The notes under the pieces are model-generated. The model worked only from the letters and a program-made list of their open reading frames with translations, was not told where the DNA came from and did not search any database. This document shows positions 240-49,029 of a stretch of DNA of 56,577 nt, piece after piece. The stretch's first letter is position 1. Each line of letters opens with the position of its first letter. Source of the stretch: Bacteroidales bacterium (lineage in GTDB: Bacteria > Bacteroidota > Bacteroidia > Bacteroidales > Bacteroidaceae); contig JALFUO010000038.1 in assembly GCA_022784065.1 (NCBI GenBank), positions 1 to 56,577 on the forward strand, read 5' to 3'. The position numbers and the translations under genes were made by a program.

Positions 240-518
240 CTCCTTGCCTATCCGCTCCGCAGTTTAAGGCGGATATTTTTTGCTAAGCCCTTGAAAATTT
301 TTCCTATGCCCGTGATAGTTTTCACTATCTGCGCAGAGAATGTTTGTTACAAAGTTTCTAATATATGTTACAAACTTTGTAACGCATGTTAGCGAGTTTG
401 TAATACATGTTACAAAGTTTGTAACAAAAACTATCTAATATGAGCGGAAAAATTTTCTTGCGGATAATGAAAACTATCTTGCGGATAGTGATACTCGAAA
501 AAGGCTTCCCAGCGAGTG
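240..518 (+). repeat. Dispersed 21-bp palindrome-array element, copy 1
   Basis: This is one of four copies of a long intergenic repeat in the window (others at 24199-24372, 34935-35235 and 48731-49029). It holds an upstream hairpin GATAGTTTTCACTATC (314-329). Four tandem 21-bp units follow at 346-366, 367-387, 388-408 and 409-429, each built on an imperfect palindrome of the type GTTACAAAGTTTGTAAC. Two more 21-bp units of the type CTATCTTGCGGATAG then run to about 490. It lies just beyond the terminator of the HU gene. A 62-codon plus-strand frame starts at 440 but is probably a by-product of the 21-bp periodicity. Confidence 0.85.
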
Positions 519-606
519 TGCCCCAGATTGTCGTGCAGGCCCGCCCCAATGATATGGCTCTGCGGCACACGTGGCGGGCGTTTCGCCCAACGCCCATATT
601 CATGAA

Positions 607-647
607 TAGAAAAGAGGCTGCGCCGTAAATTAACTTACGACACAGCC
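607..647 (-). terminator. Intrinsic terminator of the HU gene
   Basis: Read on the minus strand, AGGCTGTGTCGTAA pairs with TTACGGCGCAGCCT across a short AT loop, and the stem is followed by TCTTTTCT. It begins about 35 bases after the HU stop codon, as expected for a rho-independent terminator. Confidence 0.75.
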
Positions 648-680
648 TATAACAAAAGTCAATTTATAAGTAATTGCAAA

Positions 681-950
681 TTACTTTACAGCCTCTGCCA
701 GTTCAGCGCCGACCTTGAACTTAATCACCTTCTTGGCGGGGATTTCAATCTTCTGCTTGTTGGCGGGGTTGATGCCCGTGCGAGCGGGACGCTCGTTGAG
801 GGAGAAAGTGCCGAAGCCGAGGAGGGCTACCTTGTCGCCTGCTTTGAGGGCGTTGGCGATAGCAGCGAGCGTAGCGTCGAGGGCTTTCTTAGAGTCGGCT
901 TTGGTAAGGCCGGCGGCTGCAATTGCATTTACAAGTTCAGTCTTGTTCAT
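681..950 (-). CDS. HU-family DNA-binding protein
   Basis: This 89-residue protein has the length and layout of bacterial HU: an N-terminal helix pair (MNKTELVNAIAAAGLTK) followed by the beta-arm region with GFGTFSLNERPARTGINPA, which matches the HU/IHF signature. HU dimers bend and wrap DNA and act as a nucleoid-associated architectural protein. The gene stands alone, with its own promoter about 75 bases upstream (-7 box at 1026-1033) and a clear terminator at 607-647. Bacteroidetes carry several HU paralogues and I cannot say which one this is, so no symbol is given. The only in-frame start that leaves a complete HU fold is the one used. Confidence 0.95.
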   Translation of the reverse strand: MNKTELVNAIAAAGLTKADSKKALDATLAAIANALKAGDKVALLGFGTFSLNERPARTGINPANKQKIEIPAKKVIKFKVGAELAEAVK

Positions 951-1025
951 AATAATTTTGATTTAAGAGGTGAAAAATATGATGAATTACTTCAGTTCTC
1001 CTTTATAAATAGGCGTTTACAATGG

Positions 1026-1057
1026 CAAATATAGAGAGAGTTCGATATTCTGCCAAA
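1026..1057 (-). promoter_or_regulatory. Promoter of the HU gene
   Basis: On the minus strand a -7 box TATATTTG (1033-1026) is preceded after exactly 20 bases by a TTTG -33 box (1057-1054). This is the Bacteroidetes primary-sigma consensus with ideal spacing. The predicted leader is about 70 nt. Confidence 0.75.
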
Positions 1058-1129
1058 CTTTTTTTTGTTTTTTTGAAAAATATGCGGCAAATTCGGGCAA
1101 AATGCCGTTCAAACCGCCTGAAATCAAGG

Positions 1130-3490
1130 CTAAATGACGGTTACTTTGGCGGCAACACCGTCTTTGCCGTCGGCCGTGGCAGCCATGATGTAGTACACGC
1201 CGGGGGCTACGCGGCGGCCGCTATCGTTGCAAACGTCCCACGTGAATGTGCCGCCAGTCGAGGTGCCTCGGCGCACAAGCTGTCCGCCCACGGTAACGAT
1301 TTTCACCTCGGTGTTCAGCGTGAGCCCCGTCACTACCACGCGCCCGCTGTATTCGGGCCGCACGGGATTGGGATAAACCTTGATGTTGCTCTTGTTGAGC
1401 GAAGGGTAGGCGGTGGAGGCATCGCCTTGGAAGGAACAGAGTCCGAGGTCGGTGGCTATCATCACCTCGCCAGTGCTATGGCGTATGGCGAGCGAGGTGA
1501 TTTCGTCGGAGAGCAGGGGAGAGTCGGCGGCGGTGTAGTGGGCAAGGATTTCCGTGCCGTCGGCACCGATGAGGTAAAGTCCGTTGTCGGCGGTGCCCAC
1601 CCATTTGCGGTTGGCGGCATCGACGGCTATGGCAGAAACAGGCACGCCGTCGAGGAGGTAGTCGGCGTAGTTCGTGCCGTCGTTGCGCGGCACCTTTACC
1701 TGTGTGATAAGGAAGTTGCTATTGAACCATGCCGAGGGGTCGTCGATTACAAACATGCCGTTTTCAGTGCCGATCCAAATCTTCCCGTCCAAGTCTTGCG
1801 CCCAAGCGTAGGCCGATTCGAGCGACACGTTTGTGCCGTCCTCGTTGGTGGCGGAAGTGCGGTAGAGAGCCACGTCGTCGCGGTTGTCGAGCGTGCCTTT
1901 CCAGTCCACGCAGAGCACGCCCGAAGTGTGCGCTTCGGTGCTGCGGCGGGAGAGCACCCACAGGCGGCCAGCGTTGTCGAAACGGATGCAGTCGGCGGTA
2001 GAAACCATTTTGAGCGCTTCTACATACACGCCGTACCAGCTGCCGTCGGGGCGGAGCACTTGCAGGGCGGTGTCGCGCTGGTTGTTGGCAATCCAGAGGT
2101 TGCCCTGCGGGTCGAACTGCGCGCCGAAAGCGTAGATATAGAGCACGGGGTGCGTCGCCTCGTTGGCACTTCTGCCGAGTGCGCTGATGAGGCCGCTGTT
2201 CTTGTGGTCGTAGTGCTTGACACATTGCAGGTTGCGGAACTCAAAGAGTCCCTCAGTGCCTACCGCCCAGTGGCGGGAAGCATCATTGGGGTCTTGATAA
2301 AGCTGGCACACGTCGCGATAGGGCAGGCCCTTGAGCGTTTCTGAGGGGATGTCTTCGGAGAAATGGTACCACTCGTCGTTTTCGTAGTACATGAGCGTGC
2401 CTTTCCGGTGGTCAGAGTAATAGGGCAAGCGTCCGCCTGCCACGAGGAGACGGTCGCCCACGTAGTTGAGGTGGTAGGCGTAGTCGCGCCACGGGCCGAA
2501 ACCGCCCAAGGCGCTGCCCGAGGGCTGATAGGTGTTGCTTTCAGCATTGAGGCCATAGGGCACGAGGCCTTGTTCGCCGAGCGATGCCCACAGCCTGCCT
2601 TGCTCATTCATCTTCAAGCAGGTGAGGCGCACGTCGCTCGTGTAGAAGCCTGCTATTTTTAGCGGGTCGGCGGCATCGAAGGCATGCACCGTTGTGCTGC
2701 CGCGCAAAAGAGCCAACCGGGAGTTGGCGGTGCAAAACTCGTAGCCGTTGGTCGTGACAAATGTTGCCGTGTGGTTGCCAGAGGCATCGTCGGGCGAGAA
2801 GAACCAAAGCCCTGCCTTGTCCTCGCTGCCGCTGGCGGCGCGCGACATGAAATAAAGCCCTCCGGCAAAGGGCTGGAGGAACACTGAGGTGAGTTGCTTC
2901 TCTACTTGCCAAAGGCTCTTGTCGGCAAGGTTTTGCGTGATGCCGATGGAACGCAGCTCGTTCTGCAAGCCCACATATATGCGGCTGTCGGTGCAGGCTG
3001 CGGTGCGGGGAGCTTCGCCGAAGTTGACGGTGGAGATGACTACGCTGTTGGGCACGTTGAGGAGCATTATGCCGTCGGACGTGCCAATGACTGCATGGTC
3101 GCCGTTGACTGTGAGAAATCTTGTAGAGATGTCCTGCCCGCCCTCGTCTTTGATGTTGGGCAGGTTGCTTACCTCCATATTGTCTAAGAACAAAATGTCG
3201 ATGTTGTTGTCGCTGAACAGCAGCACGAGGGCGTTTTGCGTGGCGGAGTAACCCATATATTTAATATAGGTGCTGTGCAAGCCGTCAAGTTTGTCGAAGG
3301 TGCGTACCTCGGTGGTGGAGCTGTCGTAGATGAGCAGGTTGCCGCTGTAAAGGGCGTACACCTTGTCGCCCACGGGGATATTGTCGGTGCAGTTGCGGTA
3401 GGACATATACAGGTTCCAGCCGCCGATAGGGGCTGCCGCAAGCCACAGCGAGAGGAGCGAGCAGAGGGTTGTGAGCAAAAATCTTTTCAT
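1130..3490 (-). CDS. porZ: PorZ-like type IX secretion protein (beta-propellers plus CTD)
   Basis: The 786-residue protein starts at MKRFLLTTLCSLLSLWLAAA, a signal peptide ending before APIGGWNLYMSYRN. That opening and the repeated propeller strands (ALYSGNLLIYD, KIWIGTENGMFVIDD, KWVGTADNGLYLIGADG) match the two-propeller architecture of Porphyromonas PorZ, which has about the same length. The last 85 residues (VYPNPV, then GVYYI and KVTVI) form a type IX C-terminal domain. In P. gingivalis PorZ sits on the cell surface and takes part in attaching anionic LPS to secreted cargo. The upstream in-frame extension to 3565 lies inside an octamer repeat element and is not used. The gene follows rdgB on the same strand. 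Identification rests on architecture and N-terminal resemblance. A generic 'two-component regulator propeller' surface protein is the alternative. Confidence 0.8.
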   Translation of the reverse strand: MKRFLLTTLCSLLSLWLAAAPIGGWNLYMSYRNCTDNIPVGDKVYALYSGNLLIYDSSTTEVRTFDKLDGLHSTYIKYMGYSATQNALVLLFSDNNIDILFLDNMEVSNLPNIKDEGGQDISTRFLTVNGDHAVIGTSDGIMLLNVPNSVVISTVNFGEAPRTAACTDSRIYVGLQNELRSIGITQNLADKSLWQVEKQLTSVFLQPFAGGLYFMSRAASGSEDKAGLWFFSPDDASGNHTATFVTTNGYEFCTANSRLALLRGSTTVHAFDAADPLKIAGFYTSDVRLTCLKMNEQGRLWASLGEQGLVPYGLNAESNTYQPSGSALGGFGPWRDYAYHLNYVGDRLLVAGGRLPYYSDHRKGTLMYYENDEWYHFSEDIPSETLKGLPYRDVCQLYQDPNDASRHWAVGTEGLFEFRNLQCVKHYDHKNSGLISALGRSANEATHPVLYIYAFGAQFDPQGNLWIANNQRDTALQVLRPDGSWYGVYVEALKMVSTADCIRFDNAGRLWVLSRRSTEAHTSGVLCVDWKGTLDNRDDVALYRTSATNEDGTNVSLESAYAWAQDLDGKIWIGTENGMFVIDDPSAWFNSNFLITQVKVPRNDGTNYADYLLDGVPVSAIAVDAANRKWVGTADNGLYLIGADGTEILAHYTAADSPLLSDEITSLAIRHSTGEVMIATDLGLCSFQGDASTAYPSLNKSNIKVYPNPVRPEYSGRVVVTGLTLNTEVKIVTVGGQLVRRGTSTGGTFTWDVCNDSGRRVAPGVYYIMAATADGKDGVAAKVTVI

Positions 3491-3602
3491 AGTGGACGAG
3501 TAAACGGGTAGACAAGTAAACGAGACAGATTCGTTTCGCAATAAAATTATATTTAAGAGCAACATGGCTTGTTTGCTCGTTTACTTGTATACTTGTTTAC
3601 TG
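3491..3602. repeat. Octamer-built inverted-repeat element 1
   Basis: Left arm 3491-3530 reads as minus-strand copies of an 8-bp unit (ACTCGTTT / ACTTGTCT type) and ends CGAGACAG. Right arm 3570-3602 carries the same unit on the plus strand (GCTCGTTTACTTGTATAC). An AT-rich centre of about 40 bp separates them. The same arrangement occurs at 49722-49840 and 55801-55910. It fills the gap between rdgB and the porZ-like gene. Confidence 0.8.
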
Positions 3603-3659
3603 GATTTATTGTTTTCGGAGATAAAATATTGTATATAAAAAAACGCGGTGCGGTGCGTT

Positions 3660-4244
3660 TTATTGTCCGAGGACATACTCGGCAAACTTTGCCACGGCGC
3701 GGGCGCGGTGGCTGATGCGGTTTTTCACGTCAACGCCCAGTTCGGCAAACGTCAGGCCGCCGCCTTCTTCGGGACAGAACACGGGGTCGTAGCCGAAACC
3801 CTCCGTGCCGCGCTCGGCTTCAGCGATGCCGCCCTCCACGATGCCCTCAAAGAGATGCTCCTCGCCCGCCTCGTCGATATAGGCAATGGCGGTGCGGAAG
3901 CGGGCGCGGCGGTTGTCTTTGCCGGAAAGCTCCGCGAGCAGCTTGCGCTTGTTGGCTTCGGGGTCGTGGCGGTCGGGATAGGCATAGCGTGCCGTGTGCA
4001 CGCCCGGGCCGCCGCCGAGGGCTTCCACTTCAAGGCCCGTGTCGTCGGCAAAGCAGGGCAGGGCGTAGCGTTCGTGCACGTAGCGCGCCTTGAGCAGGGC
4101 GTTGCCTTCGAGCGTGTCGGCCGTTTCGGGAATGTCGTCGTGGCAACCAATCTCGGCAAGGCTCGCCACTTCGAGCGAATTGCCAAGGATGTTGCGTATC
4201 TCGGAGAGTTTGTGCGCGTTGTTGGTGGCAAATACGAGTTTCAT
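3660..4244 (-). CDS. rdgB: Non-canonical purine NTP pyrophosphatase (RdgB/HAM1 family)
   Basis: This 194-residue protein begins [20 protein letters not shown], the family's nucleotide-binding opening (FATNNxxKxxE). It also contains [37 protein letters not shown] with FAEL, and [10 protein letters not shown], all standard HAM1 signatures. These enzymes hydrolyse ITP, dITP and XTP to the monophosphate and pyrophosphate, keeping deaminated purines out of nucleic acids. Its start codon overlaps the stop of the upstream YitT-family gene by 4 nt (ATGA), so the two are probably translationally coupled. Length is normal. Confidence 0.96.
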
Positions 4245-5200
4245 TGTTTTTCTTTCTTGTCGGCTTTAACCTTTATCTTGTCGAACCCTTCGCCGAACAC
4301 GCCGATTACTTTCGATTGCGACACGAAGGCGTTAGGGTCGATGTTTTGAATGATGCGGAAGATGTTGGTGCTTTCGCGCTTCTTGGCCAACACCACGAGC
4401 ACCTTTCGCGACTGCTTGGTGTACCAGCCCTGCCCGTCGAGCACCGTGACGCCCCGGTGGGTTTCGTTGATGGCAGCGGCGATTTCGTCGTACTTCTGCG
4501 AGAAGATTAAGAATTGCACCGACTGCCGCCCGCGGTCCACGACGTAGTCGAGCAGGAGGTTGGTGATGATGAGCGTGCAGTAGCCGTAGAGCAGTTTGTC
4601 CACGCTCGCTTCGGGCAGCAGGATGCTTGAAGTGATGATAATCACGTCGCAGAGCATCATCATCTGCCCGAGCGTCACGTCCTTATACTTGTTGATAATG
4701 GCGGCGATGATATCCGTGCCGCCCGTCGAGCCGTTGCTCAGGAACACGATGCCGATGCCGATGCCCTCGATGGCTGCGCCGAGGATACACGACATGAAGG
4801 CATTGTTGTTGACCACCTGCGGCAGATGGCTGCGTGGGTTGATGTAGGCGAAGCTTTCGGGATAGTTCTGCCCTATATATAACATCACCTCCTGCACGAA
4901 GCCGAGCAGGAAGGTGAGCATAAACACGGCATAGATGGTTTTAAGGCAGAATTTCAGTCCCAGCACCTTCACGGCGATGCAGAGTAGCAGGATATTGACG
5001 ATGAAGAAGGTGTATTGCACGGGAAAGCCCGTGGCGTAGAAAATCACCGCGCCCGCGCCGGCAAGTCCGCCGGTCGTGATTTCGTAAGGCAATTGGAAGC
5101 AGGTGAAGCCTACGGCGTAAAAGAGCAGACCGAGGGTGATGATGACGTAGTCGTGCAGCTCTTGCATGAACGTCGGGTGAAATTTGACTGTGGCAGGCAT
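4241..5200 (-). CDS. YitT-family membrane protein (DUF2179 C-terminal domain)
   Basis: The 319-residue protein has a hydrophobic N-terminal two-thirds with five to six membrane segments (for example [20 protein letters not shown] and [20 protein letters not shown]) and the typical [19 protein letters not shown] loop of YitT proteins. A soluble C-terminal DUF2179 domain follows from about residue 235 ([20 protein letters not shown]). Function is not established in this family; a transporter-like or sensory inner-membrane role is only a guess. It lies between leuS (44-nt gap holding a palindrome) and rdgB (4-nt overlap), suggesting a leuS-yitT-rdgB transcription unit. Confidence 0.9.
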
Positions 5201-5216
5201 ATTATTATATATAAGA

Positions 5217-5240
5217 GTAGGGGCGTGCGTGCGCCCCTAC
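5217..5240. repeat. REP-like palindrome GTAGGGGCG...CGCCCCTAC
   Basis: A perfect 9-bp stem with a 6-nt loop (TGCGTG) fills most of the leuS-yitT gap. It shares its GGGGCG/CGCCCC arms with palindromes at 21089, 21154, 37345 and 56526, but has a different core. It is followed by TTGTTTACTT, resembling the octamer repeat. It could act as an RNA hairpin between the two genes. Confidence 0.7.
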
Positions 5241-5244
5241 TTGT

Positions 5245-8076
5245 TTACTTTACAACGATGTTCACGATGCGCCCGGGCACAACGATGACTTTCACGATTT
5301 GCTTGCCGTCGAGATACTTTGCGGCGGCTTCCGAAGCGAGCGTTTCCTTTTCGATTTGCTCCTTGGAGGCATCGGCGGGGAAGTCGAGCGTGAAGCGCGT
5401 CTTGCCGTTGAACGACACGCTGAGCGTCACGCTGTCCTCCTTAAGGTAAGCCTCGTCGAAGGCGGGCCATTCCGCGTCGCACACAGTGCCCTCATGGCCG
5501 AGCTTGTGCCAAAGTTCCTCGGCAAAGAACGGCGCGAAGGGCGAGAGCAGCACGGCGAGCGGCTCGAGCACGCTGCGGGCGGCGCACTTCTGCTGCGCGA
5601 GTTCGCCCACGGCAATCATGAATGCCGGCACGGCGGTGTTGTAAGAGAACGTCTCGATGTCCTCCGTCACCTTCTTAATCAGCTTGTGCAGCGTCTTGAG
5701 ATTATCCTTGGAGGGCGCGTCCTCGCTCACGGCGAAGCTGTCGCCTTTATGGTAAAGATTCCACGCCTTTTTAAGGAAGCGGTAGCAGCCGTCAATGCCG
5801 TTGGAGTCCCAAGGCTTGCTTTGGTTAATCGGGCCGAGGAACATTTCGTAGAGGCGGAGCGTGTCGGCACCGTATTTCTCGACAATCATGTCGGGGTTGA
5901 CCACGTTGTACATCGATTTCGACATCTTCTCAATCGCCCAGCCGCAGATGTACTTGCCGTCTTCTAGCACGAACTCGGCGGTGGCGTATTCGGGACGCCA
6001 AGCCTTGAAGGCTTCGGTATCGAGCACGTCGTTCTGCACGATGTTCACGTCCACGTGGATAGGCGTCACGTCGTAGTCCTTGGCGAGGCCTTTCGATACA
6101 AACGTGTTTGTGTCCTTGATGCGGTACACAAAGTTGCTGCGTCCCTGAATCATGCCCTGATTGACCAACTTTTGGAACGGCTCTTCGCTCACCGAAACGC
6201 CGAGGTCGAAGAGAAACTTGTTCCAGAAACGGGAATAGATGAGGTGACCCGTGGCGTGCTCCGAACCGCCTATGTAGAGGTCCACGCTTTTCCAGTATTC
6301 CGCCGCTTCGGGACTTACCAGAGCCTGGCCGTTGCGCGGGTCCATGTAGCGCAGATAATAGGCCGACGAACCGGCGAAGCCCGGCATCGTGGAGAGCTCG
6401 AGGGGGAATACCGTCACGTTGTCGATGCGCGCGTTCTCCGTCACCGTTTCGCTCGCCGTGTCCCACGCCCAGCGCGTGGCGTTGCCGAGGGGCGGCTCGC
6501 CGCTCTCTGTGGGCAGGAACTTCGTCACCTCGGGCAGCTCGAGCGGCAGGCAGTGCTCGGGCACGAGCTGCGGGCGGCCATTCTTATAATATACGGGGAA
6601 GGGCTCGCCCCAGTAACGCTGGCGCGAGAAGATGGCATCGCGCAGGCGGTAGTTCACCTTGACGCGCCCCATGCCCTTTTCTTCGACATATTTCTTAGTA
6701 GCCGCGATGGCTTCCTTCACCGTCAGCCCGTTGAGCGAGAAGCCGCCGGCATCTACGCCCTCGCGCGGCGAGTTCATCACGATGCCTTCTTTCGCGTCGA
6801 AGCTCTCTTCCGTCACGTCGGCGCCCTCGATGAGCGGAATGATCGGCAGGTTGAAATGGCGGGCAAAGGCATAGTCGCGCGAGTCGTGCGCAGGCACAGC
6901 CATGATGGCCCCTGTGCCGTAGCCCGCCAGCACGTAATCGGACACCCACACGGGAATCTTTTCCCCCGTGAAAGGATTTACGGCATACGAGCCGGTGAAC
7001 ACGCCCGTCACCTTGCGGTCGGCGATGCGCTCGCGCTCCGTGCGCTTCTTCGTGGCATCGAGATAAGCCTCCACCTCAGCGCGCTGCGCGTCCGTTGTCA
7101 TGCGGCCCACGAGTTCGCTCTCGGGAGCGAGCACCATGAACGTAACGCCGAAAATCGTGTCGGCGCGGGTGGTGAAAATCGTGAAAGTATCTTCGGAGCC
7201 GTCGATGCGGAACTGCATCTCCGCGCCTTCGGAGCGGCCAATCCAGTTGCGCTGTGTCTCTTTAATAGAGTCGCTCCAGTCCACCGTTTCCAGTCCGTCG
7301 AGCAATCTCTGTGCGTAGGCCGAAACGCGCAGGCACCATTGCACCGTCTTCTTCTGCACCACGGGGAAGCCGCCGCGCACCGAAACGCCGTCAACCACCT
7401 CGTCGTTGGCGAGCACCGTGCCGAGTTGCGGGCACCAGTTCACCATCGTTTCGCCGAGATAGGCGATGCGGTAGTTCATCAGCACGTTGTCCTTTTCTTC
7501 CTCGGTCATAGCCTTCCACTCCTCGGCAGTGAAGCAAAGCTCTTCGCCGCAGGCGGCATTCAGTCCTACCGAACCCTTTTTCTCAAAACGCTCCACGAGA
7601 TGGCTAATCGGCATGGCCTTGCCGCACTTTGCGCAGTAGAAAGAATTGAACATCTGGCAGAAAGCCCACTGCGTCCAATGGTAATAGCCCGGCTCGCAGG
7701 TGCGCACCTCGCGGTCCCAGTCGAACGAAAAGCCAATCTTGTCCAGCTGTTCGCGATAGCGGGCGATGTTCTGCTCTGTGGTTTTAGCAGGATGCTGTCC
7801 CGTTTGTATGGCATATTGTTCGGCGGGCAGTCCGTAGGCATCGTACCCCATCGGGTTCAGCACGTTAAATCCCTTCAAGCGTTTGTAGCGGGCGTAAATA
7901 TCAGAAGCGATGTAACCGAGCGGGTGTCCCACGTGCAGCCCCGCGCCGGAGGGGTAGGGGAACATATTCAGCACGTAGTATTTAGGCTTGGCCTTATCTT
8001 CCTCAACGTGATAGGTTTTATCCTCGGCCCATTTGCTGCGCCATTTCCGTTCGATGTCTTTGTGGTTATATTCCAT
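5245..8076 (-). CDS. leuS: Leucyl-tRNA synthetase
   Basis: The 943-residue class I synthetase starts at [16 protein letters not shown], the usual N-terminus of bacterial LeuRS. It contains the HIGH-type motif as HVGHPLGY, the editing (CP1) domain with [12 protein letters not shown] and [12 protein letters not shown], and the KMSKS motif in [13 protein letters not shown]. The C-terminal anticodon and tRNA-binding domains are complete. It charges tRNA-Leu in the cytoplasm. The frame stays open 71 codons further upstream, but that extension crosses the promoter at 8152-8182 and is low-complexity, so the start at 8076 is preferred. A stable hairpin lies between promoter and start (8094-8118). Confidence 0.98.
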
Positions 8077-9934: not shown

Positions 9935-9937
9935 TAA

Positions 9938-9965
9938 GCCCGTTTACTTGTCTACTTGTCAACTA
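9938..9965 (+). repeat. Octamer tandem repeat (short)
   Basis: About three copies of the 8-bp unit (CCCGTTTACTTGTCTACTTG) fill the gap before the PD40 lipoprotein gene. This is the same unit that builds the inverted elements at 3491, 49722 and 55801. Confidence 0.7.
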
Positions 9966-9979: not shown

Positions 9980-15987
<6,008 letters not shown>

Positions 15988-21088: not shown

Positions 21089-21173
21089 GGGCGTTTTGCA
21101 AAACGCCCGCCAAATGCGCCGCATGGCACACATTAATGAGGCTATCATTATCCGGGCGTTTTGCAAAACGCCC
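21089..21173. repeat. Pair of GGGCGTTTTGCAAAACGCCC palindromes
   Basis: Two identical, perfect 20-bp palindromes (21089-21108 and 21154-21173) flank a 45-bp spacer in the leader of the regulator gene. A third copy sits at 56526-56545. Confidence 0.9.
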
Positions 21174-24130: not shown

Positions 24131-24174
24131 TAAATATCTCGGAGAGAAGTTTTGCTTCCTCCGAGATATTTTTT
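24131..24174 (+). terminator. Terminator of the hybrid regulator gene
   Basis: AATATCTCGGAG pairs with CTCCGAGATATT, with a smaller inner stem GAAG/CTTC, and is followed by TTTTCTTTTC. It lies 62 bases after the stop codon and separates regulator and susC transcripts. Confidence 0.9.
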
Positions 24175-24198
24175 CTTTTCTACTAGGAATTTTTTACT

Positions 24199-24372
24199 GC
24201 CATATATGATATTTTTTATTACAAAGTTTGTAATATGCGTTACAAAGTTTGTAATACGTGTTACAAAGTTTCTAATATATGTTAGCAAGTTTGTAACAAA
24301 CTTTTTCTGGCGGATAGTGAAAACTATCAAGGGCTTAGGAAAAAATAGCTCGGGCTTAGTGAAATATTTCCG
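24199..24372 (-). repeat. Dispersed 21-bp palindrome-array element, copy 2 (reverse orientation, truncated)
   Basis: Four 21-bp units at 24218-24238, 24239-24259, 24260-24280 and 24281-24301 carry palindromes of the ATTACAAAGTTTGTAAT type. They are followed by GATAGTGAAAACTATC (24314-24329) and a stretch matching the left end of the other copies in reverse complement (AAGGGCTTAGGAAAAA). The second array with CTATCTTGCGGATAG units is missing. The element sits between the regulator terminator and the susC operator. Confidence 0.85.
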
Positions 24373-24418
24373 CCTTGCCGTGTGGGGCAGGGGCGGGCGG
24401 CCCGACGGGGATGCGCTT

Positions 24419-32011: not shown

Positions 32012-32065
32012 GGTTGTTTTTAAGTGTGTGTAGTTGTTTGTTATTTTGGATTGACAAATTATTGT

Positions 32066-32325
32066 GGCGGGCTGAAAGCCCAAATGTTGCTCATAGCCCC
32101 AGGCAACGCCCGGGGTACGGCGTAGTTCATTGATTAAAGCATCGCGCTCTGAAAGAGCAGCCTGCCTTATGAGGGGCAACGCCCCGTGGCATTGCAGACG
32201 AGATTACGCGCTAGAAGCGCGTGGCATTTTTGCCTTGCAAAAATGCCGAATGTGTTAATCGCGGCATACGTTTTCCCCGGGGCGTTGCCCCGGGCTGTGG
32301 GCAACAATTGGGCTTTCAGCCCGCC
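32066..32325. repeat. Cluster of REP-like two-hairpin units in inverted arrangement
   Basis: At least four units occur, each with a small hairpin (GGGCTGAAAGCCC, GCTCTGAAAGAGC, GCGCTAGAAGCGC, GGGCTTTCAGCCC) and a larger one (CCCCAGGCAACGCCCGGGG, GGGGCAACGCCCC, CCCGGGGCGTTGCCCCGGG). The outermost two (32066-32117 and 32273-32325) are inverted copies of each other. This fills the 348-bp gap between the metallopeptidase and metG. A single copy of the unit is at 11549-11598. No gene or clear promoter is seen in the gap. Confidence 0.85.
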
Positions 32326-32359
32326 TCAGGCATACCACGAGCAACAAGACATCTTATCC

Positions 32360-34934: not shown

Positions 34935-35235
34935 CCTACCTACCCGCTCCGCAATTTAAGGCAGATAATTTTTGCTATCCGCAAGAAAAATTTTCCTAAG
35001 CCCGTGATAGTTTTCGCTATCTGCGCAGAGAAAGTTTGTTACAAAGTTTGTAACGCTTATTCCAAAGTTTAGAATATGTGTTCAAAAGCACTGAACACAT
35101 ATTACAAAGTTTGTAACAAAAACTATCTTATATGAGCGGAAAAATTATCTTGCTGATAATGAAAACTATCTTGCTGATAATGAAAACTATCTTGCGGATA
35201 GTGGTGCTCGAAAAAGGCTTCCCAGCGAGGGCGCA
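34935..35235 (+). repeat. Dispersed 21-bp palindrome-array element, copy 3
   Basis: Four 21-bp units are at 35038-35058, 35059-35079, 35080-35100 and from 35101. The two middle units have drifted to ATTCCAAAGTTTAGAAT and GTTCAAAAGCACTGAAC, yet their outer bases still pair. Three units of the second array (GAAAACTATCTTGCGGATAGT type, with TTGCTGATAAT variants) follow at about 35138-35202. A plus-strand frame from 35132 runs through the second array. Confidence 0.85.
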
Positions 35236-36518: not shown

Positions 36519-36521
36519 TAT

Positions 36522-36560
36522 CAGTGAACGAGTAAACAAGTTAACGAGTATACAAGTTAT
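36522..36560 (-). repeat. Octamer repeat downstream of ddh
   Basis: About four units of the 8-bp repeat in minus orientation (GAACGAGTAAACAAGTTAAC, then GAGTATACAAG) lie between the ddh stop and its terminator. Confidence 0.65.
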
Positions 36561-37287: not shown

Positions 37288-37293
37288 TGTAGT

Positions 37294-37330
37294 TTTAGTA
37301 GACGAGTTGACAAGTAGGCGAGTATACGGG
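37294..37330 (-). repeat. Octamer repeat upstream of the esterase gene
   Basis: AGTAGACGAGTTGACAAGTA and the following GGCGAGTATAC are four units of the 8-bp repeat in minus orientation, directly before the esterase start codon. Confidence 0.65.
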
Positions 37331-41477: not shown

Positions 41478-41517
41478 TTAATATTGATAGGATTATGAGT
41501 TTTCTTGCTATTGTTTG

Positions 41518-41525: not shown

Positions 41526-41697
41526 GTGCAAGGCGAGCGCAATAGAGCTTGCTCTAATTGCCGAGCCGCAGCCTATCTTCTGCAAATATACGTAAAAAAA
41601 GCGAGGGCAAGCAAAAAAGGCGGCCATAAAAGCCATTTTGCTTATAAGGAAGTCCGAATTTGTGGAAACGAGATGCTTTTGAAAATCCCCTTTCTTC

Positions 41698-42654
41698 CTA
41701 TTTGTCCAAAATTATCTGTATCAGGAAATTCTTGGACTTGTCGCCGTAGCGGCGGCAATCTTCGCTGCCGCGCCTTTCTGTGGTGATGCAGAATATTTTG
41801 CCCTGCAATTCTTCGCTGATCATCTGTGCCGCCACGGCGGGCGAGTAGCCTTTGCGCTCGTCTTTGCCTTCCAGCACTTCGGTGTAGTAGCCGGGGATTT
41901 TTTCAAGTTTCATCAAGAGGGCATTCAGTTCGTCTGGCTTTTTCTTGGAACGCAGATAGGCGTCGATGCGCTCGTTGATGAGTTGCACGGTGGCGCGATC
42001 TATTTCGTTATCCTCGTTTTTGTAAAATTTCCCCAGGGTTTCGATTTGGAAGAGCAGTTCTTCCAACAATCCAGTTGCCTCTTCCTCAAAAGAGTTGCCG
42101 TTCAAAACAAACTTTTCATAAGCCTGCTTCGTGCCAGGTCCGAAAATGTGGAACACGCGAAAGTATGTCTGGCGATTTACCTTGTCGTACCACCATTCCA
42201 CGCCATGCACGCGGCGATAGGTCGGGTTGTTCTGGTCGGTATAGCGCAGCAAGGCATAGTTGCGCCCCTTGGTGCCCGCGATGAACGGGTCTTTGTTTTC
42301 GGCGTAATACATGCTCACTTGCTGTTGGTGCGTGGCAGCGATGTTCAAAGGGCTACTTTGGCAAAAGCCGGCCGAGGCTGACGGCGCTTCCCTCTGATAG
42401 GCGTCGAGCAGTTCCGCCACTACGGTATCGCAGGCTGCCTTGTCCTTTTTCTTGTCGTAGGGCATCGCATAGGTTTTCATGCGGAGGTAATAGGTGGAGT
42501 CCAAGCGGTCGCGCCCCTGCTCGGAGTTGTAATTCGTCTGGATGCAGTTCTTCGTTTTTTGGAACAAGGCTTCTGCATTTTGCAGGGAGGCGGTCTGTGC
42601 CGCGACGGTGAGGCTTGGCAGCGCGGCGGCGAAAAGAAGAATTAGGCTTTTCAT
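41698..42654 (-). CDS. Secreted protein of unknown function, coupled to an anti-sigma gene
   Basis: The 318-residue protein has a signal peptide (MKSLILLFAAALPSLTVAAQ) and no lipobox, so it should be periplasmic. I do not recognise a family. Visible features are a helical N-terminal part with AEALFQKTKNCIQTNY, a charged stretch with YDKKKDKAACDTVV, a beta-like middle (VEWWYDKVNRQTYFRVFHIFG) and a helical acidic region (FEEEATGLLEELLFQIETL). The start overlaps the stop of the anti-sigma-like gene by 4 nt (ATGA), so it is the third gene of a sigma/anti-sigma operon. By analogy it could be the product or a modulator of that envelope-response unit. That is inference from position only. Confidence 0.7.
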   Translation of the reverse strand: MKSLILLFAAALPSLTVAAQTASLQNAEALFQKTKNCIQTNYNSEQGRDRLDSTYYLRMKTYAMPYDKKKDKAACDTVVAELLDAYQREAPSASAGFCQSSPLNIAATHQQQVSMYYAENKDPFIAGTKGRNYALLRYTDQNNPTYRRVHGVEWWYDKVNRQTYFRVFHIFGPGTKQAYEKFVLNGNSFEEEATGLLEELLFQIETLGKFYKNEDNEIDRATVQLINERIDAYLRSKKKPDELNALLMKLEKIPGYYTEVLEGKDERKGYSPAVAAQMISEELQGKIFCITTERRGSEDCRRYGDKSKNFLIQIILDK

Positions 42655-43271
42655 AATGTCAGTTCGGTTTGGTGAGATGTATAATTAATATTGTGTAAAA
42701 CTTCCTCAATCAATTCGCGGCACATGCGCTCTTCCTTGTCCTCTTTGTTTTCCATGGCCTGCGCCAGCAGTTCTTCCACCAACTGGAGCGCTTCGGGCGA
42801 AGGAGGGGCTTCTTCTACTGACGGTTCAAGGATTACGGGGACATCTTCGGCGTGCTCTACCGCTGCGGCAGGTTTGCGCCGCACCGGCTGTGCCTTGCGC
42901 TTGGCCTCGGCAAGGCGTGGCGCGACAGGTGCGGTCTTTTCGGTAGACACGGATAGATGGGCAGCGGCAGGCTGAACAGGAACTACGGTTTGCGCCACGG
43001 GCGCGGCGGGTTCTTGCGGCTCATGAAGGGCAAACAGCCCCGCCGCCGCAATTACGACGGCTGCCGCCGCACTCGTCGCCCATTTAGCCAGGCGATGCCT
43101 GCGCGGCGCGGCAGCTGCGCGGCCCGTGAGCATGATGGCGTAGGCCTGCCATTCTTCGGGCACGTCGTCGTGAGCGGCAAGCCATTCTCGAAGCCGCCGT
43201 TCCTCGTCCTCCGATGCCGTGGCCGCCATGTAGCGGTCGAGCAAATGCTGTATGTATGCCTTGTCGTTCAT
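42651..43271 (-). CDS. Probable membrane anti-sigma factor
   Basis: The 206-residue protein has a soluble acidic-basic N-terminus (about 1-60; YIQHLLDRYMAATASEDEER, with LREWLAAHDDVPEEW), one membrane segment (about 66-84; WATSAAAAVVIAAAGLFAL) and a proline/alanine-rich periplasmic part. The N-terminal 'LLDRYMAATASEDEERRL' layout is that of Bacteroidetes FecR-like and other anti-sigma proteins, but there is no full FecR domain. It lies 40 bases after the ECF sigma gene and overlaps the next gene by 4 nt, the standard order of a regulator pair. It would hold the sigma factor at the inner membrane until an envelope signal arrives. Confidence 0.7.
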   Translation of the reverse strand: MNDKAYIQHLLDRYMAATASEDEERRLREWLAAHDDVPEEWQAYAIMLTGRAAAAPRRHRLAKWATSAAAAVVIAAAGLFALHEPQEPAAPVAQTVVPVQPAAAHLSVSTEKTAPVAPRLAEAKRKAQPVRRKPAAAVEHAEDVPVILEPSVEEAPPSPEALQLVEELLAQAMENKEDKEERMCRELIEEVLHNINYTSHQTELTL

Positions 43272-43311
43272 CTATTTCTATAAGGTGGGTTCTTTTAATT
43301 CGCTTGGTTGT

Positions 43312-43839
43312 TCATCTGATTTCTTTTTTAATAAGTTCCAAAAGCCGCGCCCGCGCCTTGCAGAGCGTGCCGCGCACCGACGACTCGGATGTGCCCAAAA
43401 TGCTGGCTATTTCGCAGAACGGCAGGTCGTGCTCGCTGCGCATCAGGAAGATTTTGCGCTGGTTTTCAGGTAGTCGGGCGAGTGCCGTGCGGAACACGCG
43501 CTGCATTTCCTCGCTTTCCAGCCTGCTGTGCGGCGTTTCCCTTTCTGCCGGCTCGGGCATGGGCGTCTCTTCGTGCTCCTCTCCCCAAAAGAACCTTAGG
43601 AAAGGGTGCCGCCGGCGGTGTTTCTGCCTGTTGAGGCAGTGGTTGCGGGCCAGCGTGGCGGCGTAGGCTTTGAGTTTCTGCGGGTCGGACTGCAGCAACT
43701 CGTGCTGCTCCCACATTTTCAGCAACACATCCTGCACGATGTCCTCCCTTTCCGCCTCGTCTTGCACGTATCGCGCCGCCTGCGCTTCTGCTGCGCTGCG
43801 ACAAAGGGGGGCTAAGGATATGTATGTTTGCTTGTCCAT
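43312..43839 (-). CDS. ECF-type RNA polymerase sigma factor
   Basis: The 175-residue protein has sigma region 2 (about 10-75; EREDIVQDVLLKMWEQ and KLKAYAATLARNHCLNRQK) and region 4 (about 118-165; LARLPENQRKIFLMRSEHDL followed by CEIASILGTSESSVRGTLCKARARL). The linker carries a proline/glutamate-rich stretch. It directs RNA polymerase to a small set of promoters. It is the first gene of a three-gene operon with an anti-sigma-like membrane protein and a secreted protein. No TAnnTTTG promoter is evident in the 188 bases upstream, so it may have an autoregulated promoter of different sequence. Confidence 0.92.
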   Translation of the reverse strand: MDKQTYISLAPLCRSAAEAQAARYVQDEAEREDIVQDVLLKMWEQHELLQSDPQKLKAYAATLARNHCLNRQKHRRRHPFLRFFWGEEHEETPMPEPAERETPHSRLESEEMQRVFRTALARLPENQRKIFLMRSEHDLPFCEIASILGTSESSVRGTLCKARARLLELIKKEIR

Positions 43840-43960
43840 CTATTATCTTATACAACGCCGCACCGTTTCCGCTACCTGGAAATTGATAATTTGTTCTTGA
43901 AAAATAAAAAAGGACCTCTGCCGGGACGTTTACTCCGTGACGGCATGGAATGAAAAGAAT

Positions 43961-43991
43961 ATGGGCTGCGCCAAACGATGACGCAGCCCAT
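43961..43991 (-). terminator. Terminator of the OmpA-family gene
   Basis: ATGGGCTGCG pairs with CGCAGCCCAT around an 11-nt loop. On the minus strand it is followed by ATTCTTTTC, and it begins about 36 bases after the ompA-like stop. Confidence 0.75.
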
Positions 43992-44027
43992 GGCTATGGT
44001 TTCAATGAAAAACTTGCTGATTGGCGA

Positions 44028-45203
44028 TTACTCATTGTTTTCTTCGAGGGTGCAGATGCTCACGCGGTTCCAGTCGGGTTCGGAGAACATATTGCCCACG
44101 CCCTGTCCTTCGGCAGAGATGCGCTCGGCGGCAATCTTGTATTTCTCGACAAGGATGGTCTTCACGGCCTCGGCGCGCGCCTTGGCAATCTTGGCGTTGA
44201 TTTCGGCGCTGCCCTCGGGCGAAGCGTAGCCCTTGATGCTTACGGTAGCCTCGGGGTGGTTTTTGAGGAACGTGGCCACGCGCTCAACGTTGGGGAGCTG
44301 GGCGGGATCTACGGTGTACTTGCCTTGGCGGAAGGTCACGGTCTGTTCCATAGAGCTGGTATGCGTGTTCTTCGTGATGTACTCCGTAGTGGGCTTGCGG
44401 TTCATGCATTCGGCGAGCGACTGATTGGCGTCGGCGAGCCGGCGCTGAAGTTCGCCGATGGTGTTGTTTGCCTTGGCGAGCTGTCCTTCTTTGTCGCTGA
44501 CGGCGTCGCGGAGGTCGTTAATCTTCGCGTTCAAGCCGTCCACCTCTGCCTGGTCGTAGGTGCGCACCTTCGTGAAGTAGTGCTTGCCCGTCCAGTTTTT
44601 GAAGTGATAGGTGATGCCTGCCAAGAGTTCGATGGCGCTCTTGTTCACGTCGTAGGCGAGATAAGAGTCTGAGCGGTCCGTCTGCAAGTTGTAGACGATA
44701 GAAGGTTTCACGGCAATCGTCCATGCCTTTTTCTGACCGACGTTGAAGTTGAAATTAACGCCCAGCTTGGAGGTGAGGAAGTTGTTGTCGCGCTGTACGG
44801 CGGCCTTGTAGTATTCGCGTCCCCAGCCAGCACCGACTACTGCCTCCATTTCGAAGACGCGGGGCACGCCGTTATAGCCGCCGAAGAGGTTGAAAATGTT
44901 TACCTTACCAAGCAGGCTTACGTTGTGCGCGTCAACGGCCAGTCGGCTGTCCGTAATGTTGTGCGCCATTGTGCCTTGCACGGCGAGGCCGAAGCCGGGC
45001 GTGATTTGCTTGGTGATTTCAAGGCCGTAAGAGGGGCGCATGTTGCTCCAAAAAGCAGAATGCGTGGTGGGCGTGATGCCGCCGCCTACGAGGCCGATGG
45101 ACCAGTTGTCGAAAAAACGGCTGTGCTCCATTGCCTTTTGGGCGTTCGCTGCTGCCGTGCCGACGAGGCCGGCAACCAAAAGGGTAAAAATCTTTTTCAT
45201 CAT
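44028..45203 (-). CDS. OmpA-family outer-membrane protein
   Basis: The 391-residue protein has a signal peptide (MMKKIFTLLVAGLVGTAAANA), an N-terminal eight-strand barrel region (about 25-205; WSIGLVGGGITPTT, YGLEITKQITPGFGLAVQG), and a coiled-coil linker (about 222-262; VDGLNAKINDLRDAVSDKEG and onwards). A C-terminal OmpA-like peptidoglycan-binding domain carries ATVSIKGYASPEGSAEINAK and RAEAVKTILVEKY. It should tie the outer membrane to the cell wall. It is a single gene with promoter box at 45281-45288 and a terminator at 43961-43991. Barrel-plus-coiled-coil-plus-OmpA forms are common in Bacteroidales. Confidence 0.93.
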   Translation of the reverse strand: MMKKIFTLLVAGLVGTAAANAQKAMEHSRFFDNWSIGLVGGGITPTTHSAFWSNMRPSYGLEITKQITPGFGLAVQGTMAHNITDSRLAVDAHNVSLLGKVNIFNLFGGYNGVPRVFEMEAVVGAGWGREYYKAAVQRDNNFLTSKLGVNFNFNVGQKKAWTIAVKPSIVYNLQTDRSDSYLAYDVNKSAIELLAGITYHFKNWTGKHYFTKVRTYDQAEVDGLNAKINDLRDAVSDKEGQLAKANNTIGELQRRLADANQSLAECMNRKPTTEYITKNTHTSSMEQTVTFRQGKYTVDPAQLPNVERVATFLKNHPEATVSIKGYASPEGSAEINAKIAKARAEAVKTILVEKYKIAAERISAEGQGVGNMFSEPDWNRVSICTLEENNE

Positions 45204-45280
45204 GACTAAAATTAAGGATTAAAACTTTTAGGAAGCAGCATGTCGAGCCATAAAGCGCGGTCTCCCTAAATCTTATGGCG

Positions 45281-45288
45281 CAAAAGTA
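45281..45288 (-). promoter_or_regulatory. -7 box of the OmpA-family gene
   Basis: The minus-strand TACTTTTG matches TAnnTTTG, 78 bases before the start codon. Confidence 0.6.
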
Positions 45289-45409
45289 CAACAATAAAAT
45301 CATTCTCACCTGTTATAATGGTTGAAAAGGCACTAAAAAGGTAAAACTTTCAGAGATATCGGACGCTTTTTAACGGAGAAATAGGTATTTCCGCTGTCGT
45401 TATAGAAAA

Positions 45410-45496
45410 GTTCATATACATGCACCTTTGGCTGCGGCTCGGCATAGCCCGATCAAACAAGTTTGTCGGCCTCTGCACTCGCCTTGCACAAACGTT
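45410..45496. repeat. Dispersed GC-rich element with variable hairpin, copy B
   Basis: This is the counterpart of 34624-34704. Here the variable hairpin reads CCGATCAAAC-AA-GTTTGTCGG, a nine-pair stem with one bulged T. Flanking words (TACATGCACCTTTGGC, GCGGCTCGGCATAG, GGCCTCTGC, CAAACGTTT) are conserved. It sits 145 bases upstream of the DUF3467 gene, in an otherwise empty 437-bp gap. Confidence 0.75.
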
Positions 45497-45576
45497 TCCG
45501 CCTTAATTTGCGCTTTTCATAGCAGATGTGTAGCGGAATATCGGCACAATACGCGCGTTATTACAACAAAATATCC

Positions 45577-45584
45577 TACTTTTG
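45577..45584 (+). promoter_or_regulatory. -7 box of the DUF3467 gene
   Basis: TACTTTTG matches TAnnTTTG, 57 bases before the start codon. alaS follows after 25 bases and is probably read from the same promoter. Confidence 0.6.
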
Positions 45585-45640
45585 CAGATAATTTCGGTTT
45601 GTCATATAAACAAGCATACACAATATTATATATATACATC

Positions 45641-45973
45641 ATGGAAAATAAAGAAAACCAAGACGGACAGCTCAAAATAGAGCTTACGCCCGAAGTGGCA
45701 GAAGGCATCTATGCCAACCTTGCCATCATCACCCATTCAAGCGCCGAGGTGGTGCTCGACTTTATCCGCGTGCTGCCGGGCCTGCCCAAGGCTAACGTGA
45801 AAAGCCGCATCGTGCTCGCACCCGAGCACGCCAAGCGCCTGCTCTTCGCCCTGCAAGACAATATCGTGAAATACGAAAAGCAATTCGGCACCATCAACCT
45901 GCCGGGCGGCGCGCCCCAGCAACCGGGCGGACGCACCGCCACGCCGTTTGGCATTCCCGAAGGCAACGCATAA
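45641..45973 (+). CDS. DUF3467 family protein
   Basis: The 110-residue soluble protein begins [20 protein letters not shown] and contains [20 protein letters not shown] and [20 protein letters not shown], then [18 protein letters not shown], the DUF3467 core. It ends in a proline/glycine-rich tail. The function is unknown, although the family is widespread in bacteria. The frame extends 71 codons upstream, but that part crosses the promoter and the dispersed repeat, so the internal ATG directly after the leader is chosen. It sits 25 bases before alaS and probably shares its transcript. Confidence 0.92.
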
Positions 45974-45998
45974 TTATATATTCAAAGCATCAAGCAAT

Positions 45999-48623
45999 AT
46001 GACTGCCAACGAAATACGCGAAGCCTACAAGAAGTTCTTTGAATCGAAAGGACATCTCATCGTGCCCTCCGCACCGATGGTGATCAAAGACGACCCCACG
46101 CTCATGTTCACCAATGCCGGCATGAACCAATTCAAGGATATCATTCTCGGCAATACCGAACCGAAATGCCGCCGACAGACCGACTCGCAGAAATGCCTGC
46201 GCGTGAGCGGCAAGCACAACGACCTCGAAGAGGTGGGGCACGACACGTACCACCACACCATGTTTGAAATGCTCGGCAACTGGAGTTTTGGCGACTACTT
46301 CAAGGAAGAAGCCATTACGTGGGCCTACGAGTTTCTCGTGGACGTGCTGAAAGTCAACCCCGAGCACCTTTACGTCACCGTGTTCGAGGGCTCTAAGGAA
46401 GAAGGCCTCGAGCGCGACAACGAAGCCGCCGCTATCTGGGGACGCTTCTTCCCTGAAAGCCACATCATCAACGGCAATAAGCACGACAACTTTTGGGAAA
46501 TGGGCGACACAGGCCCTTGCGGCCCTTGCTCCGAAATACATATCGACAGCCGCACGCCCGAAGAGCGCGCAGCCGTGCCGGGAGCCGAACTCGTGAACAA
46601 AGACAATCCGCAGGTTATCGAAATCTGGAACCTCGTGTTCATGCAGTACAACCGCAAGGCCGACGGTTCGCTCGAGCCGCTGCCGCATAAGGTGATCGAC
46701 ACCGGCATGGGTTTCGAACGCCTCGTGCGCGTGATGCAGGACAAGCATTCCAACTACGACACCGACGTGTTCCAGCCCATCATTAAAAAGATAGGCGAAC
46801 TCTCCGGCTACGCCTACGGCGAAAAAGAAGAGACCGACGTGGCCATGCGCGTAGTGGCCGACCACCTGCGTGCCATTGCCTTCTCTATTGCCGACGGGCA
46901 ACTGCCCTCGAACGCCAAGGCAGGCTACGTGATTCGCCGCATCCTGCGCCGCGCCGTGCGCTACGCCTACACCTTCCTCGGCCAGCGCGAAGCCTTCCTC
47001 TACCGTCTCCTGCCCACCCTCGTGGAAGAAATGGGCGGCGCCTATCCCGAACTGCCGGCGCAGCAGACACTCATCGGCCGCGTGATGAAAGAAGAAGAAG
47101 AGTCCTTCCTCCGCACCCTCTCGACAGGCATCTCCCTGCTCGAAGGCGTGATTGAGCAGACCGTCAAGGCAGGCAGCGACACCGTGGACGGCGAAAAGGC
47201 ATTCACCCTCTTCGATACGTACGGTTTCCCCCTCGACCTCACGCAACTTATCTGCTCCGAAAAGGGCTTGAAAGTAGACGAAGCCGGCTTCAACGCCGAA
47301 ATGCAGAAACAAAAGGAGCGCGCCCGCAACGCCGCCGCCGTGGAAACGGACGACTGGGTGGTGCTCGCGGAAGGCGAAACGCAGTTCGTGGGTTGGGACG
47401 CCCTCGAAGCCGAAAGCCGCATACTGCGCTACCGCCGCGTACAGCAGAAGAAGCAGACGTATTACGAACTTGTATTAGACTCCACGCCTTTCTACGCCGA
47501 AATGGGCGGACAGGTGGGCGACCGAGGCACGCTGCAAAGCGAGACAGAAACGGTGGAAATCTTCGACGTGAAGCGCGAGAACAATCTGCCCATACATCTC
47601 ACCAAGAAGCTGCCTGCTAATCCCGCCGCTGCTTTCCATGCTACGGTGGACGCTGAGGCACGCCATGCCAGCGAAGCCAACCACACCGCCACGCACCTGC
47701 TCGACCAAGCCTTGCGCGAGGTGCTCGGCACGCACGTGGAGCAAAAGGGCTCTCTCGTGACGCCCGACTACCTGCGCTTCGACTTTTCGCATTTCCAAAA
47801 GGTTACGCCCGAGGAACTGCGTGAAGTGGAACGCATCGTAAACCGACGTATCCGCGAGGACATTCCGATGCAGGACCATCGCGATGTGCCTATCGAAGAA
47901 GCCAAGCAACTCGGTGCCATCGCCCTCTTCGGCGAGAAATACGGCGACCGCGTGCGTGTGGTGCAGTTTGGCAAGAGCGTTGAATTTTGCGGCGGCTGCC
48001 ACGCCAAGAGCACGGGGCGCATCGGCTTGGTGCGCATCCTCTCTGAAAGCAGCGTCGCCGCCGGCGTGCGCCGCATCGAGGCCATTACGGGCAAAGCCGC
48101 CGAGGAAAGCATCTATGCACAGGAGGACATCCTGCGCGGCTTGCAGAACTTCTTTGCCGGCGCAAAGGACCTCACGGCTGCCATAAAGAAAACCATCGAG
48201 GAAAACGACGGACTGAAGCGTCAGGTGGACGACTTCGTGAAAGAGCGCATCACCGCCCTGCGCGACCGCCTCGTCGGCAATGCGACGGAGCGGGGCGGCG
48301 TGAAAGTGCTTAGTTCCGTGCTGCCCTCAGGCGTTGCCCCCGATGCCGTAAAGGACCTCGCTTTCCAAATCTCCGGAATGCTGCCCGAAAATATGCTTTG
48401 CGTGCTCGGCAGCACCTTTGAGGGCAAACCGCTCCTCACGGTGATGATCAGCAAGAACCTCGTGGAAGGCCGCGGCTGGCACGCCGGCAACATGGTGCGC
48501 GAGGCTGCCAAACTCATCAAGGGTGGCGGCGGCGGTGCGCCCCACTTCGCCACGGCAGGCGGCAAGGACGCCACTGGTTTGGAGCAGGCCGTGCAGCACG
48601 TGCTCGACACGGCTGGCATTTAA
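45999..48623 (+). CDS. alaS: Alanyl-tRNA synthetase
   Basis: The 874-residue class II synthetase starts [19 protein letters not shown]. It has the aminoacylation core with [16 protein letters not shown] and [17 protein letters not shown]. The editing domain carries the zinc residues of [12 protein letters not shown] and [10 protein letters not shown], and the C-terminal (C-Ala) domain ends with [16 protein letters not shown]. It charges tRNA-Ala and clears Ser- and Gly-tRNA-Ala. The start is taken at 45999 because the upstream in-frame codons overlap the DUF3467 gene. A strong terminator follows at 48653. Confidence 0.98.
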
Positions 48624-48652
48624 GCCTCTTAAAGAGATATATTCACGTAAGG

Positions 48653-48687
48653 AAAAGGCTGCGCCGATGCTTGGCGCGGCCTTTTTT
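48653..48687 (+). terminator. alaS terminator
   Basis: AAAAGGCTGCGCC pairs with GGCGCGGCCTTTTTT around a 7-nt loop, about 30 bases after the alaS stop. Confidence 0.9.
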
Positions 48688-48730
48688 AGGGCACAAACGT
48701 TCTGATTGTTTCGCGCTATTTTTTGTTTCC

Positions 48731-49029
48731 TGCCTACCCACTCCACAGTTTAAGGCAGATATTTTTTGCTAAGCCCTTGAAAGTTTTTCCTATGCCCGTG
48801 ATAGTTTTCACTATCTGCGCAGAGAAAGTTTGTTACAAAGTTTCTAATACATGTTACAAACTTTGTAACGCATGTTAGCAAGTTTGTAATACATGTTACA
48901 AAGTTTGTAACAAAAACTATCTAATATGAGCGGAAAAATTATCTTGCTGATAATGAAAATTATCTTGCGGATAGTGAAAATTATCTTGCGGATAGTGGGG
49001 CTCGAAATGGGTTTCCCGGCGCGGGAGTA
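48731..49029 (+). repeat. Dispersed 21-bp palindrome-array element, copy 4
   Basis: This is the best-preserved copy. The left hairpin is GATAGTTTTCACTATC. Four 21-bp units start at 48832, 48853, 48874 and 48895, and three units of the second array follow (TTATCTTGCTGATAA and variants). A frame at 48926-49030 encodes a 34-residue peptide of three heptads (KIILLIM, KIILRIV, KIILRIV). The rest of the gap to rsfS (49031-49254) shows no gene. Confidence 0.85.

Follow-up and report, generated by a model that had tools for sequence, protein, structure and literature searches.

Intergenic arrays of phased 21-bp palindromic units in a Bacteroidaceae genome, and an insertion sequence that lands beside them at a set phase

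Four copies of a dispersed, intergenic palindromic element lie in a 56,577-nucleotide stretch of Bacteroidales DNA (assembly GCA_022784065.1, contig JALFUO010000038.1, hereafter the window), which constitutes contig C95 in a 103-contig assembly that totals 2.23 Mb, with 85% completeness. Direct reading confirmed an earlier account of this DNA (the preliminary description), in that each copy contains a core of four palindromic 17-mers at 21-bp steps. Copy 1, on the plus strand, consists of left outer 21-bp units formed by a word and a T-tract (263..345, seen by direct reading and lag-21 similarity), the core (346..425), and right outer 21-bp units formed by an A-tract and a word (426..500). Copy 2 lies on the minus strand, with degenerate right outer units at 24164..24217, the core at 24218..24297, and left outer units at 24298..24376. 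Copies 3 and 4 are again on the plus strand. The core of copy 3 (35038..35117) belongs to a GTTCA subfamily and carries paired changes in its two inner units; its left and right outer units span 34966..35037 and 35118..35201. Copy 4 has left outer units at 48758..48831, a core of four palindromic 17-mers at 48832..48911, and right outer units at 48912..48996. The preliminary description had named outer units on the right side alone, passing over the left-hand ones, which are 21-bp-spaced in all four copies, and the degenerate right side of copy 2. Direct similarity in the noncoding DNA of the window reaches 23.75 per kb at lag 21. Among 15 control lags (16–30 and 42, besides 21), 13 give 0–0.83 per kb, the remaining two being lag 16 (5.14 per kb) and lag 42, the double period (13.34 per kb). 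A search of the window against Rfam at gathering score returned no match.

AlaS relatives with names place the genome in the Alloprevotella/Prevotellamassilia group, the nearest named AlaS being 80% identical over the C-terminal 374 residues. A two-unit core pattern, whose form is unchanged by reverse complementation, matches the genome 211 times versus none for a reversed-pattern control, which excludes chance. Merging the listings of the genome gave 82 element places, or about 82 copies. Of the 80 distinct copies examined, 76 have a four-unit core, 72 of them by script and four (L028 and three GTTCA-subfamily copies) by eye; the other four copies have 2, 2, 5 and 6 units. Unit number and the 21-bp phase therefore do not vary at random. 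The core falls within an open reading frame (ORF) of at least 150 amino acids in 3 of 72 copies, as judged with a crude ORF caller. None of 23 within-contig intervals between copies is under 5 kb, an outcome with a chance of ~0.014 (hand arithmetic) for random copies at the overall density. A simulation of even spacing, for which copy positions were entered by hand from earlier lists, gave p 0.0002 for the minimum and p 0.0012 for the coefficient of variation, values that are biased because contigs tend to end at copies. A predicted intrinsic bend of 94 versus 65 degrees per 105 bp was left out of account, given a crude shuffle control and wedge parameters of uncertain accuracy.

The outer units have a polarity of their own. 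Among 40 copies, they mostly read as word plus T-tract to the left of the core and A-tract plus word to the right, so the outer sides point outward from the core. In a set of 62 copies, the last two columns of left units 1–3 are T in 79–96%, and the first two columns of right units 1–3 are A in 83–100%. The centre of the first left unit is mostly TGCGCA and that of the first right unit mostly CTTATAG or CTTATATG, neither being invariant. The predominance of T-tracts on the left and A-tracts on the right would suit a bidirectional transcription terminator or insulator, in which the left units supply a stem and T-run and the right units their mirror image. The stems, however, are weak and often mismatched, and the copies show no bias to convergent genes: among 51 copies with a neighbour on both sides, 14 lie between convergent, 27 between tandem, and 10 between divergent genes, 21 further copies having only one neighbour in the piece examined. 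We hold a terminator or insulator to be a slim prospect.

The preliminary description had the palindromes drifting in paired fashion. This holds for one four-copy GTTCA subfamily and fails as a general rule, the commonest half-site change being uncompensated. The end pairs of 248 core units (GC 124, GT 52, AC 43, AT 29) are nearly independent, and 12 units have both halves variant where 10.75 are expected. The commonest variant half-site, TTAG, leaves a G-G mismatch; in an alignment of 39 copies, the C-G pair that it hits is broken in 14, 17, 21 and 1 of 39 in units 1–4. A non-consensus half-site is present in 71 of 72 four-unit copies, where 11.7 copies without any would be expected. The spacers alternate purine and pyrimidine in 171 of 216 cases. 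Within a copy, spacers match one another in inverted orientation less often than expected (1, 0, 2 versus 7.2, 6.9, 8.5), and direct identity shows no such depletion (4, 8, 7 versus 7.6, 7.0, 9.6 expected), so that long hairpins look avoided in the arrays; short-read assembly could under-represent long inverted repeats. Independent half-sites, an uncompensated commonest change, and spacers that avoid inverted identity together favour dimer sites on double-stranded DNA over a structured RNA.

A structured RNA had been offered as one of two explanations. This reading, taken to include a hairpin or cruciform element under selection for base pairing as such, draws on several observations. Each of the six single copies tried has a better fold than its shuffled versions (z −5.5 to −11.5), and across the 39 copies pairing and covariation stand slightly above shuffles: 90.5% of cells are paired versus 89.0%, and the covariation score of 0.108 (0.077 shuffled) is reached by none of 500 shuffles. 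Some covariation is thus present in this alignment, and its stem double changes follow the pattern of one subfamily. Both sides have changed in 30 cells: 17 of these are purine/pyrimidine changes at the end pair and 13 lie inside stems, four at each of three pairs and one at a fourth, as the four GTTCA copies would give. The covariation term of RNAalifold is −0.25 of −10.55 kcal/mol. The outer arms covary weakly (L1 p 0.0025, R1 p 0.029), R2 and L2 not being significant. Across 61 family arrays whose units were chosen regardless of pairing, paired changes show no excess (352 versus 363.4, z −1.2; six slid controls, z −0.3 to −3.8), and palindromes of differing words show no peak at 21–22 bp. 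An earlier within-array covariation of z 10.8 in 69 arrays was discarded; it had counted flanking non-array units and vanished with units chosen by similarity alone. At one locus (L327), 300–400 bp after orfB and beside the right end of an insertion sequence, three palindromes of differing words stand exactly 22 bp apart by eye, an isolated case and not a general pattern. The small RNAalifold term, the broken pairs, and the lack of both a paired-change excess and a symmetry peak led us to reject structured RNA as the principal explanation; together with the spacer depletion and the empty Rfam search, they make it very improbable.

The geometry of the arrays extends beyond this species, and their words do not. 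The two-unit core pattern was absent from all 57 congeners, many of them incomplete genomes, and blastn at E ≤ 0.001 found no match in 40 relatives. Copies of the core were likewise found in no plasmids, in no phages and, by a stricter pattern with the own genome left out, in no genome contigs. A single two-unit match occurs in one viral contig of IMG/VR (L048:5350-5385). Downstream of alaS, 29 congener loci lack the core, and in four of them (L071, L073, L077 and L078) arrays with a 21-bp period and different words can be made out by eye. We computed period spectra over lags 14–30 for filtered, self-similar intergenic loci. Among 66 congener loci, lag 21 accounts for 17, lag 22 for 6, and any other lag for at most 3. 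Named Alloprevotella-like genomes, partly the same as those behind the congener set, gave 21 loci with 7 at lag 21, 5 at lag 22, and at most 3 at any other. In 59 loci from other Bacteroidaceae the order is reversed, with 26 at lag 22, 8 at lag 21, and at most 5 elsewhere. Other Bacteroidales families (23 loci, 30.1 kb noncoding) gave at most 2 at any lag, and 50 kb of E. coli, only 4.1 kb of it noncoding, gave no period loci.

The statement that no copy adjoins a transposase is true of the window and not of the genome, where 10 of about 82 copies adjoin the end of an IS3-family insertion sequence (IS). The right end of this IS, starting TGTCTTTTCCTGATTTTACTAGACAC, occurs 11 times, each within 270 bp of a contig end, and the 11 occurrences of the matching left end also sit at contig ends. 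About 11 IS copies thus seem to break the assembly, and the IS of the host genome is known from its ends alone, its interior not being assembled. A full relative in a congener (L295) encodes orfA (PF01527) and orfB (PF00665 and NF033516, 1e-71), the arrangement of two overlapping ORFs with helix-turn-helix and rve/DDE domains that, judged by sequence, assigns the inserted element to the IS3 family. In 10 of 11 cases the right end faces an array, its distance to the last core unit being 67, 87, 87, 87, 87, 88, 89, 89, 108 and 110 bp; the eleventh right end has no core nearby. All ten distances equal 3–5 modulo 21 (Rayleigh R 0.966 modulo 21), and in-phase positions cover under 1% of the genome by rough arithmetic. 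The ten include a two-unit copy (L092) and one whose last core unit has diverged (L027, 89 bp). The letters preceding the ten insertion points differ, so the insertions look like separate events. No core was seen by eye in the 230-bp flank of any of the 11 left ends.

The association recurs in congeners. A tandem repeat of 21 or 22 bp lies within 200 bp in 16 of 17 congener right-end flanks (21 were listed, four from the own genome) versus 13 of 142 control windows, and the array words differ from site to site (TTCCCAGCGGCTGGGAATAATG, TACCAAGGGCTGGCAATTCGAT, AAGTATCTAAACATACTTTGCC and others). Congener insertions show a significant phase only once the angle is doubled (n = 15, R 0.70, p 6.6e-4), the doubling being needed because word and linker dyads lie half a period apart. 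Ten congener loci have a solo right end, with no transposase of the IS kind following. These ends measure ~90–145 bp, contain repeated TAGACA motifs, and mostly adjoin arrays (L297-L303, L305, L307, L314); in up to 420 bp inspected by eye on the far side of the arrays, no left IS end was seen; at L314, a stretch resembling a left end occupies the junction itself. Transposase relatives at E ≤ 1e-60 occur in 30 of 301 family genomes. At the family transposase loci that were read, a 22-bp repeat lies on the right side in 8 of 26 and on the left in 0 of 27, one left side having lag 21.

These data bear on a third explanation, in which the element is a passive, non-autonomous mobile repeat akin to a miniature inverted-repeat transposable element (MITE), spread by the IS3 or another transposase, with the array as cargo or a by-product of duplication. 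In its favour are about 82 copies in one species with no two-unit match in 57 congeners, the longer flanks that one subfamily, by eye, has in common past the outer units, and the solo right ends, lacking a transposase, beside congener arrays. Against it stand the four units kept in 76 of 80 copies, the finding that most of 40 copies compared have only the array in common, the lack of a left end in the up to 420 bp inspected beyond the solo-end arrays, and the phasing of IS insertions to the lattice. We regard a MITE-like origin as rather unlikely.

We lean, with moderate confidence, toward an intergenic platform of double-stranded DNA that would serve both as a one-face protein array and as a docking lattice for the IS. 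Such an array is consistent with half-sites that change independently, a constant number and phase of units, spacers that shun inverted identity, and an IS whose insertions keep to the same lattice, and the one-helix-face protein-binding array proposed in the preliminary description gains support from the kept unit number and phase and from the fixed phase of insertion. The four adjacent dyad sites, two helix turns apart and comprising eight TTACAAA half-sites, would be occupied on one face by a putative dimeric DNA-binding protein, and the outward-pointing units of A-tract and word would prolong the 21-bp lattice on both sides. The element would belong to a wider Bacteroidaceae class of intergenic arrays of 21–22-bp units, often palindromic, whose words differ from one species to the next but whose geometry is preserved. 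An IS3-family lineage would land near the array edge with its right end toward the array and in a defined phase relative to the two-turn repeat, presumably through some contact between transposase and array. The cellular role may be chromosome architecture or insulation, as proposed for the REP/BIME elements discussed below.

Several observations weigh against this platform. The consensus palindrome reaches p ≤ 0.05 in only 34 of 73 arrays (eight of the 73 from the window), and the outer arms are weakly symmetric. Within-copy tests lack independence because the copies are related to one another, and the spacer effects are not significant on 22 non-redundant cores from an earlier set of 62, where their direction agrees in part. 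Independence is also incomplete among the 17 congener flanks: L284 enters twice through nested ends, leaving 15 of 16 sites, L302 and L305 look like one orthologous site in two related species, and the repeat at L297 looks coding. Undoubled, the congener phase is not significant (R 0.21, p 0.52). Among the family loci, 17 of 26 have no 21/22 repeat on the right, and the right-side lag-21 hit at L334 sits inside the IS end.

A broader proposition, which we advance tentatively, is that Bacteroidaceae carry an unrecognized class of intergenic nucleoprotein lattices, whose words may be replaced from species to species, probably through co-evolution with the binding protein, and whose geometry would persist and be read by a dedicated IS3 lineage docking whole lattice steps from the core. 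If so, two-turn dyad lattices mark the intergenic DNA of a large bacterial family and, because their spelling changes from species to species, easily escape notice; near-regular spacing of the copies would make the arrays chromosome-organizing sites. The IS would then be an independent in vivo readout of lattice phase, making the binding protein searchable, and would show how an IS can track a target of ever-changing sequence. The idea behind REP and BIME would extend to Bacteroidota.

Other features of the window can be recorded here. A gene for an HU-type protein (PF00216, 6e-30) at 681-950 adjoins copy 1, possibly by chance; a PF00216 gene likewise lies alongside BrickBuilt_14 of Porphyromonas gingivalis in the portion of PMC4596501 that describes it. 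A second repeat, of the GTTTACTTGTCTACTCGT type, has a period of 8 bp and often forms a pair of inverted stretches close together; it occurs at 3496-3613, 9941-9965, 11522-11638, 36520-36560, 37293-37328, 49727-49842 and 55793-55911. A dispersed 20-bp palindrome, GGGCGTTTTGCAAAACGCCC, is found at 576-595, 21089-21108, 21154-21173 and 56526-56545, three copies being identical and one at 85%. A further dispersed repeat (GGGCGTTGCCC... CAATTGGGCTTACAGCCCGCC) lies at 11548-11602, 32063-32124 and 32274-32328, and a stretch resembling it adjoins IS left ends at L316 and L317.

In a search that covered few subscription papers, we found none that names such arrays in its title or at the start of its abstract. 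Among the systems found, the closest in Bacteroidales is BrickBuilt, a MITE of P. gingivalis described in parts of PMC4596501 as a 23-nt repeat of 1 to 22.8 units with terminal inverted repeats. Both are intergenic, species-specific tandem repeats with flanking segments in Bacteroidales. The present element differs in its 21-bp period, its dyad sites, and its four units in 76 of 80 copies, which leave no free variation of unit number; no terminal inverted repeat was noticed, no dedicated search having been made, and the outer flanks are shared within one subfamily only (by eye). For positional landing, the closest counterpart is the IS1202/ISAjo2 family of 'dif site hunters', which, as outlined in passages of PMC10132070, have TGT...ACA ends and insert at fixed orientation and distance beside a bound site. 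The IS described here also has TGT...ACA-type ends and a set orientation and distance, whereas its transposase is of the IS3 family and it targets a 21/22-bp array instead of a Xer site.

The closest known kind overall is the repetitive extragenic palindromic (REP) sequence and bacterial interspersed mosaic element (BIME), together with the IS3-family members that hunt REP sequences. In the relevant portions of PMC1525189 and PMC3733652, REP and BIME are extragenic, high-copy and palindromic, some are species-specific, and they are targeted by IS3-family elements; the REP-targeting IS compared here were IS1397, ISKpn1 and ISPsy8. The arrays share each of the extragenic, high-copy, palindromic and IS3-targeted traits, and their about 82 places lie within the tens to hundreds of palindromic copies per genome that characterize REP and BIME. 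By inspection, the core words of the host lack the unpaired GTAG or CGTC that marks one foot of the REP/BIME palindrome; the array words of one other genome (G016) contain GTAG in mid-word. The arrays differ in their strict two-turn, four-unit lattice, in words that vary between species, and in an IS that lands beside the core at lattice phase rather than inside one palindrome.

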